Of a stretch of DNA of 35,464 nt, positions 2,656-29,732 are shown piece by piece. Source of the DNA: a virus; IMG/VR virus record IMGVR_UViG_3300044620_000678, positions 1 through 35,464 of that record, one strand, 5' to 3'. Position numbers and translations under genes: made by a program. The first letter of the stretch is position 1, and each line of letters begins with the position of its first letter. Below the pieces are notes generated by a model that was given only the letters and a program-made list of their open reading frames with translations, did no database searches and was not told the origin of the DNA.

Positions 2656-3210
2656 ATGGCAAATACATTATTATATCATCAAGATCCATATACTATCTCA
2701 TTTGATGAGGTAGGTAACTCTTTTGAATCATTTTACTCATATCATCCAGAAATGATGGGATGTTTGAATATTACACTGTTTACGTTTAAAAATGGAGCAA
2801 TTTGGATGCATAAAAACAATACATATTGTAATTTCTATGGGGTTCAATATAATGCATCAATAACAAGCGTATTTAACTCAAATTCATTGGATAAAAAGAC
2901 ATGGGTTTCAATAATGGAAACAGGCAATACTACATGGTCTTGTCCAATTATATATACTCAAATGGGGACAGGTGGAAATGAAGCTGTAAAGCAGGTAAGT
3001 CAGCTTTTAGAGTCTGATTTTGTAACTTTGGAGTCTGAGTATCAAGCATCGTTTTTAAGGGATTTTAACAGTCCGGGAGGGCTAATAGAGGGGGATAGCC
3101 TAAAGGGTAATTACATAGTTATAAAATTTGAGAAAACAAGTGCAAATTCTTTCGTATATTTGAACAGCGCAACGACTAAGTATATTAATTCACCATTGAA
3201 TAATAGATAA
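2656..3210 (+). CDS. Tail structural protein, C-terminal part of the split protein
   Basis: This 184-residue protein holds motifs that I recall from the C-terminal third of the same long tail proteins whose N-terminal part lies at 1-1140. They are 'FYSYHPEMM' near residue 27, 'FTFKNGAIWMH', 'FYGVQYN', a central 'WSCP', then 'FLRD.N.P' and a terminal 'YINSP.NNR'. In the proteins I remember, these follow directly after the 'YIIAMEE' segment, within one polypeptide. Here they start a separate ORF with its own ATG after a short A-rich spacer. It overlaps the next start by one base (TAATG). The two fragments probably assemble together in the tail. The family match is from memory and a profile search would settle it. 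Confidence 0.65.
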   Translation: MANTLLYHQDPYTISFDEVGNSFESFYSYHPEMMGCLNITLFTFKNGAIWMHKNNTYCNFYGVQYNASITSVFNSNSLDKKTWVSIMETGNTTWSCPIIYTQMGTGGNEAVKQVSQLLESDFVTLESEYQASFLRDFNSPGGLIEGDSLKGNYIVIKFEKTSANSFVYLNSATTKYINSPLNNR

Positions 3211-11980: not shown

Positions 11981-11988
11981 TATATTTG
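11981..11988 (+). promoter_or_regulatory. Bacteroidota-type -7 box TATATTTG before the ferritin-like gene
   Basis: TATATTTG matches the Bacteroidota -7 consensus TANNTTTG and ends 19 bases before the ATG at 12007. No clear -33 TTTG lies at the usual distance. The same 12 bases, TCTTATATTTGA, recur at the promoter before 12711. The TTG inside the box could be misread as a start codon, but the leader it would add has no merit. Confidence 0.6.
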
Positions 11989-12006: not shown

Positions 12007-12501
12007 ATGTTACCAAAATCATTATTAAGCGCAAGCATGAAAAAGGGATTACAAGATGCATTGCAAGTGGAATTATATCAATCAAACCTATGGAAACACC
12101 TTGCAAATAATCTTCAAAGATTAGGGTTGTTTGGTAGTCAAAAATATTTTTTAGCCGAAAGTGCTGAAGAACTTACTCATTATCAAATGATTGTAGAATT
12201 TATAAATGACATGGGCGATGTCGCTGATATGCCAAAAATAGAGGCGGTAACTGATAAAATCAGCTCTATTGGGGATGCATTAGATTTAGGTTATGAAACA
12301 GAATTAGATGTATTAAACCAATATAAGGATTTATATAAAAAGGCAGAAGAGGAAGATTGTGTAGTTGCTCAATTTTTACTTAAATTTATTAAAATACAAA
12401 GACAAGCGGTAGGGCAATATGGTGATTTATTAGCAAAATATAAAATAGCTGAAGAAACTAAAGAAATTCTTGAATTTGATCAACATATTAACGATTTATA
12501 G
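12007..12501 (+). CDS. Ferritin-like four-helix protein
   Basis: Starting at ATG 12007 gives 164 residues of almost pure helix with a ferritin pattern. Helix A has 'VELYQSNLW' (E22). Helix B has 'ESAEELTHYQ' with E55 and H58 of the ExxH motif, followed by 'INDMGDV'. Helix C has 'YETELDVL' (E99). Helix D has 'IKIQRQAVGQ' (Q131). By hand alignment to E. coli FtnA these correspond to E17, E50, H53, E94 and Q127. The second helix-D ligand (E130 in FtnA) is Ala here, so the ferroxidase centre may be incomplete. It could store or bind iron, or be a structural four-helix protein. An in-frame TTG at 11986 is rejected because it lies within the promoter box. It sits directly after the giant internal protein and has its own promoter. 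Confidence 0.8.
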   Translation: MLPKSLLSASMKKGLQDALQVELYQSNLWKHLANNLQRLGLFGSQKYFLAESAEELTHYQMIVEFINDMGDVADMPKIEAVTDKISSIGDALDLGYETELDVLNQYKDLYKKAEEEDCVVAQFLLKFIKIQRQAVGQYGDLLAKYKIAEETKEILEFDQHINDL

Positions 12502-12685: not shown

Positions 12686-12693
12686 TATATTTG
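12686..12693 (+). promoter_or_regulatory. Bacteroidota-type -7 box TATATTTG before the gene at 12711
   Basis: TATATTTG ends 18 bases before the ATG at 12711, in the 42-base gap after the small basic gene. The flanks (TCTTATATTTGA) are identical over 12 bases to the box at 11981. No -33 TTTG is visible at 17-19 bases upstream. It predicts a very short leader of about 10 bases. Confidence 0.65.
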
Positions 12694-12710: not shown

Positions 12711-13229
12711 ATGCCTTTAGTACCGAATTTTACAGCTAGCCAGTATAGTGGCACACCATCGGTTATCACTTTAACAGATACAAGTACAGGCTCTGATGTT
12801 ACTATTGCTAAGCGTAGAATTTATCTATTGCAAGCTAATGGTACTATGTTAGTTCCAGCTGGTACTCTTACAACTTATATTGATTGGCCTTTAGCAAATA
12901 CAAGTATTAGTTTAGATGTATTATCACAAGATAGTGCATTAAGTATTACTGTTCAATGGTTGACTTCTGCAAATGCAGTGGTTACATCAAAAACAACTTC
13001 ATTCGCATTTACTGCATACAATGAAACTTTCTATTATGGATTAACAGAAAGTCAAGTTGCAAATTCAAATTTAAGCGCAAGTACGAATTGGTATCAAACT
13101 AAATTAATACTTAGAGTTGAAATTGATAGCGCAGATCAAGCAATTACATTTGCATCTGATATTTATTCAGCACAAGCTGCATTAAATAGAGCGACATATA
13201 TTTCTACTAACCAATCATATTTCTTCTAA
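12711..13229 (+). CDS. Beta-rich phage structural protein of unknown function
   Basis: This 172-residue protein has an all-beta look: 'ITLTDTSTGSDVTIAKRRIYLL', a 'WPLANTSISLDVL' strand pair and 'ITVQWL' spell an Ig-like or fibronectin-like sandwich in the first ~90 residues. A helical C-terminal part follows. I recall closely similar hypothetical proteins in many Bacteroidota and metagenomic phages, always within structural clusters, without an assigned function. It has its own promoter and is followed one base later by the next gene, so the two are probably co-transcribed and may be head-tail or fibre-adaptor components. There is no signal peptide or catalytic motif. Confidence 0.65.
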   Translation: MPLVPNFTASQYSGTPSVITLTDTSTGSDVTIAKRRIYLLQANGTMLVPAGTLTTYIDWPLANTSISLDVLSQDSALSITVQWLTSANAVVTSKTTSFAFTAYNETFYYGLTESQVANSNLSASTNWYQTKLILRVEIDSADQAITFASDIYSAQAALNRATYISTNQSYFF

Positions 13230-23553: not shown

Positions 23554-23588
23554 AAAAAAGAGCAGCTAAAAAGCTGCTTTTATTTTTT
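23554..23588. terminator. Bidirectional terminator hairpin
   Basis: A 7-bp stem AGCAGCT/AGCTGCT (23561-23567 with 23572-23578) closes an A4 loop. It is flanked by an A-run on the left (23553-23559) and a T-rich run on the right (23578-23588). It therefore works as a Rho-independent terminator in both directions, for the plus gene ending at 23550 and the minus gene ending at 23566. The TAG stop of the minus gene lies inside the hairpin. Confidence 0.8.
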
Positions 23589-26500
23589 CTATAACCATTT
23601 GAGCTGTTATTGATTTATGACATTCAAAGTGTTTGTCAGTGCCTTTGTGTTTGCACCAATTCCAATCTCCTTTATCAAAGATAATGCCTTCTTCATTCCA
23701 GCATCCATGACATACGTTTGTATTGGTTATTCTTACGCAATCAGTAAATTCATGATCCGCCTCTGTAAAATTGCTTATCATAAATACTTTTACATTTAAA
23801 GCCCAAGCAAGCCAGCTTAAACCTGAACTAAGCCCTATAAAAAACTTGCTATTACTAATCATATTTATGGTGTTCTCTATTGAGGTATCTTCTATTTGTA
23901 CGCAATTATCAAATGGATTCTTTTCTTTAGATACATTATAAACAATATAGTTTTGGCTAACTAAATAGTTTATAAGCTCTTGCCAACCTTCTTTCGTCCA
24001 AAACTTGCACCCTGAAGTAGAGTTCGTGGCTATTGTAACAAATTTTCCAGCACTTTCAAATTTGACAGGAGTATAAGCTAATACAGGTCTTTGTTCTGTA
24101 AAATCTAATCCTAATATGTTTGTTGCGGCTTTTTGTAATGGGATAGTATTTGGGATTTCTGGTTCCTTATCGCTATTGTAAAACCATCCTATTCTATATA
24201 AAGCATAAACATTATTTACCACAATGCCCGGTTCCACCAATTCTAATTCTGGATAGTGCAGTATTCTATTCCAAAAAGTGGATAATATAACCTTGCATTG
24301 ATGTAGCTTTTGAAATTCTAAAGCATAGGGAACCCAAGCTAATGTATCTCCCAATGATTTACTTTCTATAACAATAAATACTCTTTTGTTATTTAAGTGC
24401 AAGAAATTTGCATATATCATTTCATTACCTTCCCAAACTTTGGTTGTCCAATTTGTAAAGTATGTTCTATTTAATTTTACCCAAGTGTTTGAATTTATTA
24501 TATTTTCGTAAATAATACTACCATTCCCATCAAAAAATTGAACTTTAAATTTACTATCTACATTGCCTTTGATTTCTAGAAATGGATTGTCAACAAAGTG
24601 CTGAGAAATAGATACTTTTTGCTTTTGAATAGGTAATTCAATTATTTTTTTATAAGCATCTTCTTGTCTAAAAGCAAATATAGGAGTGGTATTGTCTGTA
24701 GGTACTTCGTAATTACATTCTAAGGTATTTAAATCGCTATCAATTGGCTGTAGGTAGTTTGTAAACATATCTCCATATTGAGGCAAATTTCTAGCTATAA
24801 TAGGCAATCCGTAGCTAATGGCTTCCCTCAAAACTAAGGGATTACATTCCCAAGTGCTATTGAACATAAATATATCAGCCATCTCCATAAAAGTATCTAT
24901 GTCTTTCCTTTCCCCCCAAACTTTAACATTACTAGGCAAATCTTTCATCAATGGTTCCCAATAATCCTTAAAGTTCCCAGCTTGATTGCCAACAAAATGA
25001 AATGTCATATTAGGGTATTTACGCGCAATTTCAATGCCTTCACCTTGATTTTTACCACTAGTCCATAACCCTACATTTAAAACATGTTTTCCATCTTTTA
25101 CTGCATTAACTTCTTTTTTATCTATCGGATATTCTATTGTAACAAATGTAGATTCCATATTAGCAAAAGTTTCCTCATGATATGGAGAACAGAATATATA
25201 TGAATCTGGATGAAATATCTTTTCTTTATCAGGATCAAAAGATACGTCATGGCAAGTTTCTGCAATTCTATATTTTCTATTTGAATCATAAAGTCTTTTT
25301 ACCATCTCTCTATCTAATCTTTCAGATGGCTCGTCTATATGTATTAAATCAGGCTTCCATCTATCAATTACCTTAAATAACTCCATCTTATCTTCATATA
25401 AAGTAGTAAAGTTTTCTCCTAGTAAACTTTTTATCTTATCTCTTTGAACCACGAAATCTAAGCTATAGCATTGATATTCAACAACATATATTTCACAATC
25501 AGTATAATCTTTAAGAGCTTCAATTCTTTTTAGTAAAAACTGGGGCATCCCGCCTGTGCTTAAATGTGGGGCTAGGTAAAGTATTCTCATTTTCTTTTCT
25601 CCAATAAACAAGTTTATCTTGTCTATATTTTTTTCTCCATGATAAAATAATAAATCTTCTTTCTTTGCGGGTATTCTAAGCCAGTTGCCATCTATTCTAG
25701 CTTCTCCTGTAAATTCTAAATTATTATGTAATCCATTAACATATATACAAGGCAAGCCGTTAAAAACGAGTCTTTTGTATAGCAATACGTTCATTATTGT
25801 TTCTTCGTGATATGGCGCATACCATTCATGATTTGCTAGTATTTTGGGGTGGTTGCACATCCAATACCATTCGTCCAAGAAGTCTATTGTTTTTTGCCCA
25901 GCAACATAATACCCCGTTTGCCTATATCTTTCCCTCACATATTGGTTTATACCAAATAAATCACAAGCTGGATGCTCTAACGTAGTGCTTAAATCATCTC
26001 TGCTATCGGCGCCACCACGACCATTTATATGCAAATAGTCATATACCCCTTCTACAAAATAAGGACAAGTTGAATTATAGTCATAAAAATCAAAAATCCT
26101 ATCTACGTAAGGACTTGCAACAGAATCAGTATCAATGTAAGCTACTGTGTCTGCGTAATTGATTAAAGCATCTTTTGTAATCTTGGGTCTTTCTATAAGG
26201 AGCTTGTAAATATCTTTGTCTGCTCTGTCTATATAATCTTTCCTTTTAACCGAATTTTTTACATCACAATCCCATCTTATTGTTATGGTGTTTTCTACTT
26301 CTACTTTATTGTCCGAATTAAGCATGTAAACGTAAATAGGATAAGTGCTAAAATTTCTAATGGAACGACAACAAGCATCCACAAGATCAAAATAGGAATC
26401 GTCAGCATAAAGGACGTAAGCTTTTTCATGTTCGTGTTTTTTTTTATTCAAAAATATATCATTTTCACGTCTATCAATATTGTAGATATTTTGTATTTTT

Positions 26501-27036
26501 AATAGAATATTGTCTATTGCCTCTTTATTTGATATTTCATTGCACTCAAATTCTATAGTATCTGCAAGCAATTTAGGGTTAATGTTGCATTGGTTTAAAT
26601 ATGACTCAAGTATAATATGGTCATGCCCTTCAGTATCTATTTTAAGGTGTGTAATGCCTTCTATATTAAACATATCAACAAGAGAATACCAATCCATCTT
26701 AATTACTCTTGTTTTTGTCACTATTTTGTCATATAAATCTTTCCCTATCTTATTTATAACATATTCATGTGGTTTATCTACACTATTGCATCCTCTAACC
26801 CAATATGGTAGATTATTTTCTATTATTTTATCTTCTTCTATGTGGTATATATCTATAAATCCGCTATATTCAGATATAGCAGCATTAACTTTAGTGACAT
26901 TTTTTTTATCTGGGAGCCTGTCTAGATAGAATTTTATTGGTTCTATACTTAATCCAATGGTATTATCATCTGCATTTTCAATAAGAGTATCAAAGTCAGA
27001 TGTGCCTATTTCAATGAAATCGTAGTGTTTCCCCAT
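23566..27036 (-). CDS. Four-domain sugar-transfer fusion: FkbM methyltransferase, GT-A, GT4, BAHT-like heptosyltransferase (1156 aa)
   Basis: Domains in order. Residues 1-190 are an FkbM-type SAM methyltransferase ('FIEIGTSDFDT' start, 'LKIDTEGHD' at 131-139). Residues 200-470 are a GT-A-type region with 'AYIDTDSVAS' (D302-T-D304). Residues 483-800 are a GT4/GT-B domain: 'LAPHLSTGGMPQ' at its start and the E730-x7-E738 motif in 'WECNPLVLREAISYG'. Residues 810-1156 are a GT9-like domain resembling autotransporter O-heptosyltransferases (TibC/Aah, BAHT), with 'ESKSLGDTLAW' (891-901), 'GLSSGLSWLAWAL' (1068-1080) and four Cys (1109, 1112, 1128, 1139). The Cys match the metal-binding Cys cluster known in that family. 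Activity is predicted as stepwise glycosylation and methylation, perhaps of Ser/Thr in virion fibres; the target is inferred. It is inverted relative to its neighbours and has a full promoter at 27059-27088. Confidence 0.8.
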   Translation of the reverse strand: MGKHYDFIEIGTSDFDTLIENADDNTIGLSIEPIKFYLDRLPDKKNVTKVNAAISEYSGFIDIYHIEEDKIIENNLPYWVRGCNSVDKPHEYVINKIGKDLYDKIVTKTRVIKMDWYSLVDMFNIEGITHLKIDTEGHDHIILESYLNQCNINPKLLADTIEFECNEISNKEAIDNILLKIQNIYNIDRRENDIFLNKKKHEHEKAYVLYADDSYFDLVDACCRSIRNFSTYPIYVYMLNSDNKVEVENTITIRWDCDVKNSVKRKDYIDRADKDIYKLLIERPKITKDALINYADTVAYIDTDSVASPYVDRIFDFYDYNSTCPYFVEGVYDYLHINGRGGADSRDDLSTTLEHPACDLFGINQYVRERYRQTGYYVAGQKTIDFLDEWYWMCNHPKILANHEWYAPYHEETIMNVLLYKRLVFNGLPCIYVNGLHNNLEFTGEARIDGNWLRIPAKKEDLLFYHGEKNIDKINLFIGEKKMRILYLAPHLSTGGMPQFLLKRIEALKDYTDCEIYVVEYQCYSLDFVVQRDKIKSLLGENFTTLYEDKMELFKVIDRWKPDLIHIDEPSERLDREMVKRLYDSNRKYRIAETCHDVSFDPDKEKIFHPDSYIFCSPYHEETFANMESTFVTIEYPIDKKEVNAVKDGKHVLNVGLWTSGKNQGEGIEIARKYPNMTFHFVGNQAGNFKDYWEPLMKDLPSNVKVWGERKDIDTFMEMADIFMFNSTWECNPLVLREAISYGLPIIARNLPQYGDMFTNYLQPIDSDLNTLECNYEVPTDNTTPIFAFRQEDAYKKIIELPIQKQKVSISQHFVDNPFLEIKGNVDSKFKVQFFDGNGSIIYENIINSNTWVKLNRTYFTNWTTKVWEGNEMIYANFLHLNNKRVFIVIESKSLGDTLAWVPYALEFQKLHQCKVILSTFWNRILHYPELELVEPGIVVNNVYALYRIGWFYNSDKEPEIPNTIPLQKAATNILGLDFTEQRPVLAYTPVKFESAGKFVTIATNSTSGCKFWTKEGWQELINYLVSQNYIVYNVSKEKNPFDNCVQIEDTSIENTINMISNSKFFIGLSSGLSWLAWALNVKVFMISNFTEADHEFTDCVRITNTNVCHGCWNEEGIIFDKGDWNWCKHKGTDKHFECHKSITAQMVIEKIKAAF

Positions 27037-27110: not shown

Positions 27111-27488
27111 ATGAAAATAGAAGTAAGTATCGGTGAGGTAGTAGATAAGTACACTATCTTAACCATAAAAAAGCTATTCATCCATGATAGTGAAAAACTA
27201 GTAAACGTAGAAAAAGAATGGAAAATAATTAAATCTGCTTTATTAAAAAAGCATCCAGAAACACTAACAGAACCATTTACCCAAGAGCTTTACGACATAA
27301 ACAAAAAGCTATGGAAAGTGGAAGATGATTTAAGGGATTGCGAGCATAAGAATTATTTTGGCGAAAAGTTTGTTGAATTAGCAAGGGAAGTTTACCAATT
27401 AAATGACGTTAGGGCTATAATAAAAAAACAAATTAATCAAAAGTATGGCTCTGAATTAATAGAAGAAAAATCATATAAACAACACTAA
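27111..27488 (+). CDS. DUF6165-like helical protein of the glycosylation island
   Basis: This 125-residue helical protein opens 'MKIEVSIGEVVDKYTIL'. It continues with 'LYDINKKLWKVEDDLR' and ends with 'LNDVRAIIKKQIN' and a 'GSELIEEKSY' tail. From memory this matches DUF6165, a family repeatedly found beside glycosyltransferase genes in phages and environmental bacteria, without known activity. No catalytic residues are evident. It starts the plus-strand part of the island and is followed three bases later by a glycosyltransferase, so it may help or scaffold those enzymes. That role is inference. Confidence 0.65.
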   Translation: MKIEVSIGEVVDKYTILTIKKLFIHDSEKLVNVEKEWKIIKSALLKKHPETLTEPFTQELYDINKKLWKVEDDLRDCEHKNYFGEKFVELAREVYQLNDVRAIIKKQINQKYGSELIEEKSYKQH

Positions 27489-27491
27489 TTT

Positions 27492-28424
27492 ATGAAGAAC
27501 ATCAGATTTATCTGTGCGCAACCCACCTCTCTTTTTTATGCTTGGCAAGTAGAAGTTATGATAAATAACTTTATAGAAATGGGCATAAACCCAAATAGCA
27601 TTGATATTGTATCTTGGAAAGTGAACAATGTAATTCCTGAAGAATGGGTAAAATTAGCTAATGCATATCCTGTTAGATTCTTTTTTTATGATGACACTAG
27701 AGTTACAAGACATTACATATCGTCTATCCGTCCTAATATATTGAAGCAACATTTTGCAGCTCATCCTGAATTAGAAGAAGAAGCAATTCTTTATCATGAT
27801 TGCGATATTGTATTGACAAAACCAATAAATTGGGAGCAATTTTTGGAAGATGAAAAATGGTATGGGTCTGATACTAGATGGTATATAGCGCATAGTTACA
27901 TATTAAGCAAAGGTCAAGATGTTTTAGATAAAATGTGTGAAATAGTTGGTATTGAAGAGTCAATTATTAAAGACAACGAGCTTAATTCAATTGGCGCACA
28001 ATACTTAATGAAAGGAATAAATGCTGAATTTTGGGCTAATGTAGAAAAAGATTGTGAGAGGTTATATAATGAAATTACAATGTTGAATAACATTAAAAAG
28101 GCTGAAAATAACCAATATCATGAACTACAAATATGGTGCGCAGATATGTGGGCAGTCTTATGGAATGGCTGGAAATTAGGCAAAGAAACGGTATGTCATC
28201 CCGATTTAGAATTTGCTTGGGGTACTAGCTCCGAAAGCGATTTTGAAAGATTAAATATATTGCATAATGCCGGTGTTGTTAGCTCTGCTGATGGTTTATT
28301 TTATAAAGCAGAATTTATGGATAGATTACCTTACAATCTAAATTTAAATATCAAAGAAGGAACGGCATCAAAAAAGTATTACGAAATTATACAACAAGTA
28401 GAAAAAAAATCAGTTTTGATATGA
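27492..28424 (+). CDS. GT-A-type glycosyltransferase with DCD motif
   Basis: This 310-residue enzyme has a GT-A-like layout. It starts 'RFICAQPTSLFYAWQVEVMI', continues with an alpha/beta half, and has 'ILYHDCDIVLTKP' with D103-C-D105 as the metal and nucleotide-sugar binding DxD motif. It then has 'GAQYLMKG' and 'WCADMWAVLWNGW', and a helical end. The pattern recalls, weakly, plant and algal peptidyl Ser/Hyp glycosyltransferases, which would fit protein glycosylation; that resemblance is from memory and uncertain. No membrane anchor is seen, so it should act in the cytoplasm. The stop overlaps the next start (ATGA). Confidence 0.7.
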   Translation: MKNIRFICAQPTSLFYAWQVEVMINNFIEMGINPNSIDIVSWKVNNVIPEEWVKLANAYPVRFFFYDDTRVTRHYISSIRPNILKQHFAAHPELEEEAILYHDCDIVLTKPINWEQFLEDEKWYGSDTRWYIAHSYILSKGQDVLDKMCEIVGIEESIIKDNELNSIGAQYLMKGINAEFWANVEKDCERLYNEITMLNNIKKAENNQYHELQIWCADMWAVLWNGWKLGKETVCHPDLEFAWGTSSESDFERLNILHNAGVVSSADGLFYKAEFMDRLPYNLNLNIKEGTASKKYYEIIQQVEKKSVLI

Positions 28425-29173
28425 AAATACCATTTATATCATGTAAATGCATAACTTATGGTAGAGTTAGTACGCTTGAAGAGAGTGTTGAATCTTTCCT
28501 CAAGCAGGACTATCCTAAAGATAGATGTGAACTTATCATAGTTAATGATTACCCTTTACAAACCCTTATATTTGATCATCCTCAAGTTAAGATAATTAAC
28601 TTAGACAAGACATTTGATACAATAGGAGAAAAAGAAAACTTTGCTACAGAACTGTGTCAAGGAGATATTATATGTCAATGGGACGATGATGACGTAGCTC
28701 TACCAAATCATTTACAGAACGTAGCTAATTATATGACAGAAGATGTTAATGTACTTCATTGGGAAACAGGAGTGTTATGTCATAGTACAGGTATTGAAAC
28801 TGTTGGTTGGATAGGTAACTCTGGTATTGTGTTTAGAAAGCAAGCTTGGAGGGCTATAGGGGGACATCCTCTTGAAAATGCTGGATATGATATGACTTTC
28901 ATTGAACGTATCAATGCATATGGAGGAAGATTATTTGCCAAACCACCTAAAGAAGAAGCTAGCTGGTTTTATATGTGGGGGGGAAGAGGATATCACATGA
29001 GTGGCGAAGGAACAGACCATCCCGGAAAGTTAAATGCTATACAAAGACATAGTGCATACATTGAATATGAAAGAAGTATGGGAAATATTCTTGAAGGAGA
29101 AGTTCGTCTTAAACCTAATTGGAAAAAAGATTATAGTCAAATGTTAAAAGATTTTATCAATAAAAATAAATAA
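28421..29173 (+). CDS. Family 2-type glycosyltransferase
   Basis: This 250-residue GT-A enzyme starts 'FISCKCITYGRVSTLEESVESFLKQDYP', the usual family 2 first strand and helix. It then has 'LIIVNDYP' and a DxD region 'CQWDDDDVALP' (D88-D91). The downstream part 'GNSGIVFRKQAWRAIGG' and 'AGYDMTFIERI' matches the acceptor-side motifs of family 2 enzymes. It lacks membrane segments and is soluble. Coupled by ATGA overlap to the preceding glycosyltransferase and two bases from the following methyltransferase, it clearly belongs to one operon. The transferred sugar and acceptor cannot be read from the sequence. Confidence 0.8.
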   Translation: MKIPFISCKCITYGRVSTLEESVESFLKQDYPKDRCELIIVNDYPLQTLIFDHPQVKIINLDKTFDTIGEKENFATELCQGDIICQWDDDDVALPNHLQNVANYMTEDVNVLHWETGVLCHSTGIETVGWIGNSGIVFRKQAWRAIGGHPLENAGYDMTFIERINAYGGRLFAKPPKEEASWFYMWGGRGYHMSGEGTDHPGKLNAIQRHSAYIEYERSMGNILEGEVRLKPNWKKDYSQMLKDFINKNK

Positions 29174-29174
29174 T

Positions 29175-29732
29175 ATGTCTATTAAAGATACACTGTATGC
29201 CATGAGGAGTGGACATTACAAAAATGGATTAGAAGATTTAATTAACTATGTAAATACGTTTTCTAATACTAAGGAGATGACAATCCTTGAGATTGGATCT
29301 TATGCTGGGGAATCAACAGAAATGTTTGCTCAAAACTTTAAAAGTGTTATATCAATTGATCCTTTTATAAACGATTATGATGCAAATGATCCTGCTTGTA
29401 GCTATATGGACTTAACAAATGTTTACAAAACTTTTAGTTCAGTAATATCTAAGTATGATAACATAACTCATATTAGAAAAACATCAGATGATGCTATTGA
29501 CGAACTTAAAGACATTAAAGTGGATTTAATCTACATTGATGGTTTACATACATACGATCAGGTTAAGAAAGATATTGATAACTATAAAAGTTTAATCAAT
29601 GAGTCTGGATTCATTAGTGGTCATGATTATCATCAAGTTTGGCAAGGAGTTGTAGATGCTATACATGAGAAAATAGGGGGGCCTGACAAAATATTTCAAG
29701 ATACGAGTTGGATTAAAAAATTAAATAAGTAG
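29175..29732 (+). CDS. Class I SAM-dependent methyltransferase (Methyltransf_24 type)
   Basis: This 185-residue protein has motif I 'ILEIGSYAGES' (37-47), an acidic end of strand 2 ('ISIDPF'), and 'VDLIYIDGLHTYDQV' (116-130) with the D-G-x-H pattern of the Methyltransf_24 family. A further 'GFISGHDY' strand follows. Relatives act on sugars or other small hydroxyl-bearing substrates. Between two glycosyltransferases it most plausibly methylates a transferred sugar, capping or modifying the glycan. It is separated by one to two bases from both neighbours. Confidence 0.75.
   Translation: MSIKDTLYAMRSGHYKNGLEDLINYVNTFSNTKEMTILEIGSYAGESTEMFAQNFKSVISIDPFINDYDANDPACSYMDLTNVYKTFSSVISKYDNITHIRKTSDDAIDELKDIKVDLIYIDGLHTYDQVKKDIDNYKSLINESGFISGHDYHQVWQGVVDAIHEKIGGPDKIFQDTSWIKKLNK

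Follow-up and report, generated by a model that had tools for sequence, protein, structure and literature searches.

The window analysed here, the whole 35,464-base record of a freshwater virus, carries a ferritin gene 35 nt after the end of a gene for a giant 2058-aa protein (Table 1). The gene is followed by a small basic ORF and by the gene for a 172-aa protein that gave zero Pfam or PHROG matches.

Table 1. Coordinates of the ferritin gene and the features around it in the window
Feature	Position	Strand	Remarks
Giant upstream protein, 2058 aa	5795..11971	+	aa 143-631 match L086_up; aa 1033-2036 match L091_dn and L007_dn
TATATTTG box, possible Bacteroidota -7 element	11981..11988	+	19 nt before ferritin ATG; motif only
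Ferritin gene, 164 aa	12007..12501	+	ATG at 12007; stop ends at 12501
Small basic ORF, 54 aa	12504..12668	+	Directly after ferritin; conserved near or beside ferritin in several relatives
172-aa protein, presumed structural	12711..13229	+	Conserved downstream in relatives

The ferritin ORF product matched the Pfam family Ferritin (PF00210) over residues 13-145 with an E-value of 2.4e-18 (66.8 bits; family cut-off 24.5), and its best relatives among solved structures were all ferritins. The AF2 model (pLDDT 89, pTM 0.82) contained helices at residues 9-38, 42-68, 88-116, 118-151 and 154-163, the last being helix E, the element that seals the four-fold axis of ferritin 24-mers. Over residues 4-164 the model superposed on E. 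coli FtnA and T. maritima ferritin (TmFtn) with a Z of about 24, an rmsd of 1.2-1.4 and TM-scores of 0.92-0.93. The family score, the four-helix bundle with its short C-terminal helix E and the intrasubunit diiron centre are those of a classical ferritin, and as judged from sequence and model the product is one, belonging to a phage-specific family. The original prediction had described a ferritin-like protein and had let that description depend on the predicted fold; the Pfam match and the ferritin fold obtained for the monomer both agree with it. A Dps identity was rejected, as helix E is present and the intrasubunit ferroxidase site complete. A bacterioferritin is marked by a haem-ligand Met and a site-B His (Met52 and His130 of E. 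coli Bfr); at these positions, as placed by the E55-x-x-H58 and Q131 registers, the window protein has L56 and A134, which would speak against a bacterioferritin if the registers hold. A comparison with 50,697 phage records gave no sequence match at E-values up to 0.01. Among structure models, the BFVD records A0A6J7WIS1, A0A6J7WPK9 and A0A6J5N5R9 are long phage proteins, annotated as prohead protease or as ferritin/Dps, with ferritin-like folds inside, a hint that some virion proteins may carry fused ferritin domains.

The family was aligned to human H ferritin (HuHF; PDB 1fha/4oyn) and FtnA, both reference sequences being identical to PDB chains (FtnA to 1eum). Every metal-ligand and ferroxidase residue of HuHF (E27, E62, H65, E107, Q141 and A144) was matched in the window protein, by E22, E55, H58, E99, Q131 and A134, respectively. 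The first five of these (E17, E50, H53, E94 and Q127 in FtnA) were invariant in 62 of 62 homologues, and position 134 (FtnA E130, HuHF 144) was Ala in 47 and Ser in 15, with nothing else found. A helix D pattern, Q-x-K-A-x4-G-D, is likewise common to HuHF and most phage members. Overall identity to HuHF is, however, only 21%: HuHF Tyr34 corresponds to Trp29 and E140 to Ile130, and the acids of the human 3-fold channel are not conserved (D131 is Q122, E134 is L125). The window protein resembles FtnA in length and helix-E fold (Z 23.6-24), with sites A and B mostly kept, but differs in having Trp for FtnA Tyr24 and in lacking the site C ligands E126, E129 and E130, site C of FtnA (E49, E126, E129, E130) being represented by E54, I130, Q133 and A134. 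Site C of an FtnA-type three-iron ferritin is thus absent, and in place of Glu at HuHF 144 there is the Ala that, with Ser, characterises H-type sites. The conserved Tyr34 of H-type ferritins is not found, and because W29 stands in its position the protein is not classed here as an H-chain ferritin; by alignment, the resemblance is confined to its metal ligands.

These results alter the reading of the site in the original prediction, which had listed E22, E55, H58, E99 and Q131 as retained and the equivalents of FtnA E130 and E126 as Ala and Ile. All of these letters are correct (A134 and I130 being the last two), but the list passed over the loss at the FtnA E129 position (Q133) and made no mention of W29. 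Its conclusion that one iron ligand is missing is functionally wrong, since human H ferritin also has Ala here and the other H-type residues are all present; the error arose because E. coli FtnA was taken as the sole template. The Ala144 position of human H ferritin is occupied by Ser in mitochondrial ferritin (FtMt) and SynFtn and varies across animal H chains (PMC12092714), and Ser/Ala is the only difference between the active sites of HuHF and ChF, which has Ser (PMC7055317). Ala at position 134 is therefore a normal H-type state, and what the window ferritin lacks, on its sequence, is the auxiliary site C of FtnA and no essential iron ligand. The correction matters, as the earlier reading would mislead functional studies.

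The real oddity of the protein, as far as alignment can tell, is Trp29, at the position of FtnA Y24 and human Y34. The Tyr at that position is described as strictly conserved in H-type ferritins and can donate an electron (PMC12092714, PMC4646333). Of the distinct homologues, 62 in all, 60 came from viral records, the window included, and two from short MAG contigs; the residue pairs at positions 29/134 were Trp/Ala in 46 cases, Tyr/Ser in 15 and Tyr/Ala in one. The Tyr/Ser members (for example, L101, L102, L118 and L124) share the Ser144/Tyr34 combination of cyanobacterial SynFtn and human mitochondrial ferritin, unlike the clade of the window, which is Trp/Ala in 46 of 46. In a tree of the first 51 homologues, used for broad clustering only since it was weakly resolved and had very long reference branches, the 46 Trp members clustered and the Tyr members fell outside. 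The change from Tyr to Trp may thus have arisen once, in which case the Trp/Ala pairing would count as one event and not as many independent ones. Trp29 may take over the electron-donor role of the Tyr, and with that donor replaced, iron-oxidation kinetics may differ from those of H-type ferritins. How the Tyr at this position works is currently a mechanistic question, for which the family supplies a naturally occurring Trp variant.

The ferritin gene is under purifying selection: dN/dS was at most 0.37 in all of 565 homologue pairs (median 0.14) and ranged from 0.06 to 0.24 between the window gene and 23 relatives. A first scan of bacterial genomes for close ferritin relatives found none, and a second found only the two MAG contigs (L114 and L115), which are probably mis-binned phage, because long ORFs adjoin the ferritin in both, and those of L115 have phage-type domains. 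Bacterial ferritins for comparison came from 12 genomes of a sample of 200 Pseudomonadota; nearly all of them retained Tyr24, E126, E129 and E130, the two exceptions resembling other ferritin-like proteins. Together, the homologues make up a phage-specific family of ferritins whose site is H-type, as against the FtnA type in the bacterial (Pseudomonadota) ferritins sampled.

Contigs bearing relatives, which were found via the ferritin, reached sizes of up to 72 kb. In a close relative of 66 kb, with a ferritin 96% identical to that of the window, terminase, portal and primase matched phage families. Its terminase and primase were nearest to those of Flavobacterium, Cellulophaga, Tenacibaculum and Maribacter phages (26-38% identity), and the host of the virus is for that reason probably a flavobacterium or a relative of one. 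Ten relatives gave zero matches to the terminase families PF03237 and PF04466, and nine of the ten matched the terminase family phrog_6681. Elemovirus (Flavobacterium phage vB_FspP_elemo) has a related terminase (28% identity), a similar order of head genes and, in the slot of the giant of the window, a single 3694-aa 'structural protein'; in contrast to the window, no ferritin was found in that giant with the family HMM and none is annotated in that stretch. A literature search for virion proteomics of Elemovirus found none.

In relatives of the window, the N- and C-terminal parts of the 2058-aa protein are separate genes with the ferritin between them, so that, from these matches, two genes appear to have fused into the giant gene of the window, with the ferritin displaced from between to after them. 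In many relatives the ferritin start overlaps the stop of the upstream giant gene by 7-16 nt, and the ferritin stop often lies a few nt inside the downstream gene, an arrangement that fits co-expression. The original prediction had given the gene its own promoter, which is not established: besides these overlaps, there is only a lone TATATTTG box, which resembles a Bacteroidota -7 element, with no TTTG or TTG partner upstream of it, and a sigma-70 scan returned 13 sites against 9.1 +/- 3.1 in shuffled sequences. A second TATATTTG box lies at 12686-12693, 18 nt ahead of the gene that starts at 12711. Another group of relatives has the ferritin after a 784-790-aa gene, portal-like in L009, L012, L022 and L073 and assigned by size in the others; in the four named contigs the ferritin stands between this gene and the next head gene. 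In L087 and L089 it precedes a connector-type structural gene, and giant ORFs flank it once more in the most distant relatives. The giants beside it in L102, L115, L118 and L124 carry InPase, ART-PolyVal, LPD39, GGDEF, zeta-toxin or DarB-like domains. Such domains typify polyvalent proteins, a class believed to enter the cell together with the phage DNA. Every identifiable neighbourhood thus falls in the virion module, usually between or just after giants and otherwise beside portal or connector genes, and the placement of the gene in the virion gene cluster, as originally proposed, was upheld by the neighbours identified in the relatives. The possibility that the ferritin is a domain split off a giant protein was rejected, the family HMM finding nothing in 18 giants, including gp18 of Elemovirus.

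On the combined evidence of residues, model and gene order, the gene probably encodes an active H-type ferritin, made late with the virion proteins, which most likely ties up iron in the infected cell. In each subunit, a four-helix bundle would be completed by a short helix E and would house a diiron ferroxidase centre of H-chain type, in which E22, E55 and H58 would form site A and E55 and E99 site B, with Q131 and A134 lining the site. Assembled as a 24-mer cage, the protein would use O2 or H2O2 to oxidise Fe2+ and would store the iron as Fe3+. Gene order suggests late expression alongside the virion proteins, and the tying up of free iron could then reduce Fenton damage to phage DNA under replication and to newly made particles. 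The original prediction had offered iron supply or sequestration, protection of DNA and a recruited structural protein as roles, which the sequence by itself does not tell apart.

The main rival reading, possible though in our view rather unlikely, is that the ferritin is instead a virion component in or on the particle, perhaps injected with the DNA like the adjoining giant polyvalent proteins. It would then act as infection begins, or serve as a surface part that bears iron ('Ferrojan horse'). All identifiable neighbourhoods, with their giants, portal-like and connector-type genes, agree with such a role, as do the polyvalent-type domains in the giants of four relatives. The virion module, however, makes up about half of the genome, so that three or four sites within it carry little weight, and the location is suggestive of a particle role and not proof of it; the slot also moves with no single partner kept, and late genes with non-virion products are common. 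A 24-mer about 12 nm wide would hardly fit through a podovirus tail unless disassembled. In a Vi01-like phage, the ferritin-like gp217 was detected by mass spectrometry, but the authors noted that low peptide counts cannot tell virion proteins from contaminants, and the phage showed no dependence on TonB or FeoB (PMC10892097). A more specific version, a particle-borne iron oxidase co-injected with giant polyvalent effectors, its site retuned by paired Tyr-to-Trp and Ser-to-Ala changes, is more speculative still and seems improbable; such a protein would perhaps soften stress from iron or ROS just as infection begins. The recurrent placement among virion and injected-type giants makes a particle-borne ferritin testable by proteomics.

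We consider it very doubtful that the protein is a crippled FtnA-type ferritin, short of a needed ligand and acting as a slow iron binder or sink: the equivalents of FtnA E126, E129 and E130 are indeed lost, but HuHF, FtMt, ChF and SynFtn function with Ala or Ser at the last of these positions (PMC12092714, PMC7055317), and anaerobic Fe2+-bound human H ferritin showed no third iron near the centre (PMC13411386). Least credible is the originally suggested recruited structural protein with the fold kept and the iron chemistry lost, for which the structural cluster around the gene might speak, as the ferroxidase residues are invariant in all homologues while site C and the Tyr have changed, and a scaffold role would not preserve buried Glu/His ligands.

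Ferritins in phages are already known, and the novelty lies in the type of site, in the Trp variant and in the giant genes that recur beside it. Ferritin has been counted among the genes for ROS defence in freshwater phages (PMC6802176), Dps and Mn-catalase are reported in Gratiaviridae (PMC8008677) and bacterioferritin in Flandersviridae (PMC11780533); Thermus phage phiLo has an annotated 'putative ferritin'. Like the window protein, the reported members of the superfamily are iron-handling four-helix proteins, and gp217 and the phiLo gene lie near tail genes. Neither the Trp/Ala site nor the giant-gene neighbourhood is described in the accessible portions of PMC6802176, PMC8008677, PMC11780533 and PMC10892097.

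Elsewhere in the window, positions 2656-3210 gave a weak, sub-cut-off match to the C-terminal domain of a crAss-like phage muzzle protein (E-value 2.6e-4). In the closest relative, an ArdC-type antirestriction protein with a polyvalent metallopeptidase domain is encoded on the minus strand (L107:5124-6035). A 1156-aa protein encoded on the minus strand of the window at 23566-27036 combines FkbM methyltransferase, glycosyltransferase group 1 and glycosyltransferase family 9 domains, and its gene adjoins further sugar-related genes at 27111-29732.
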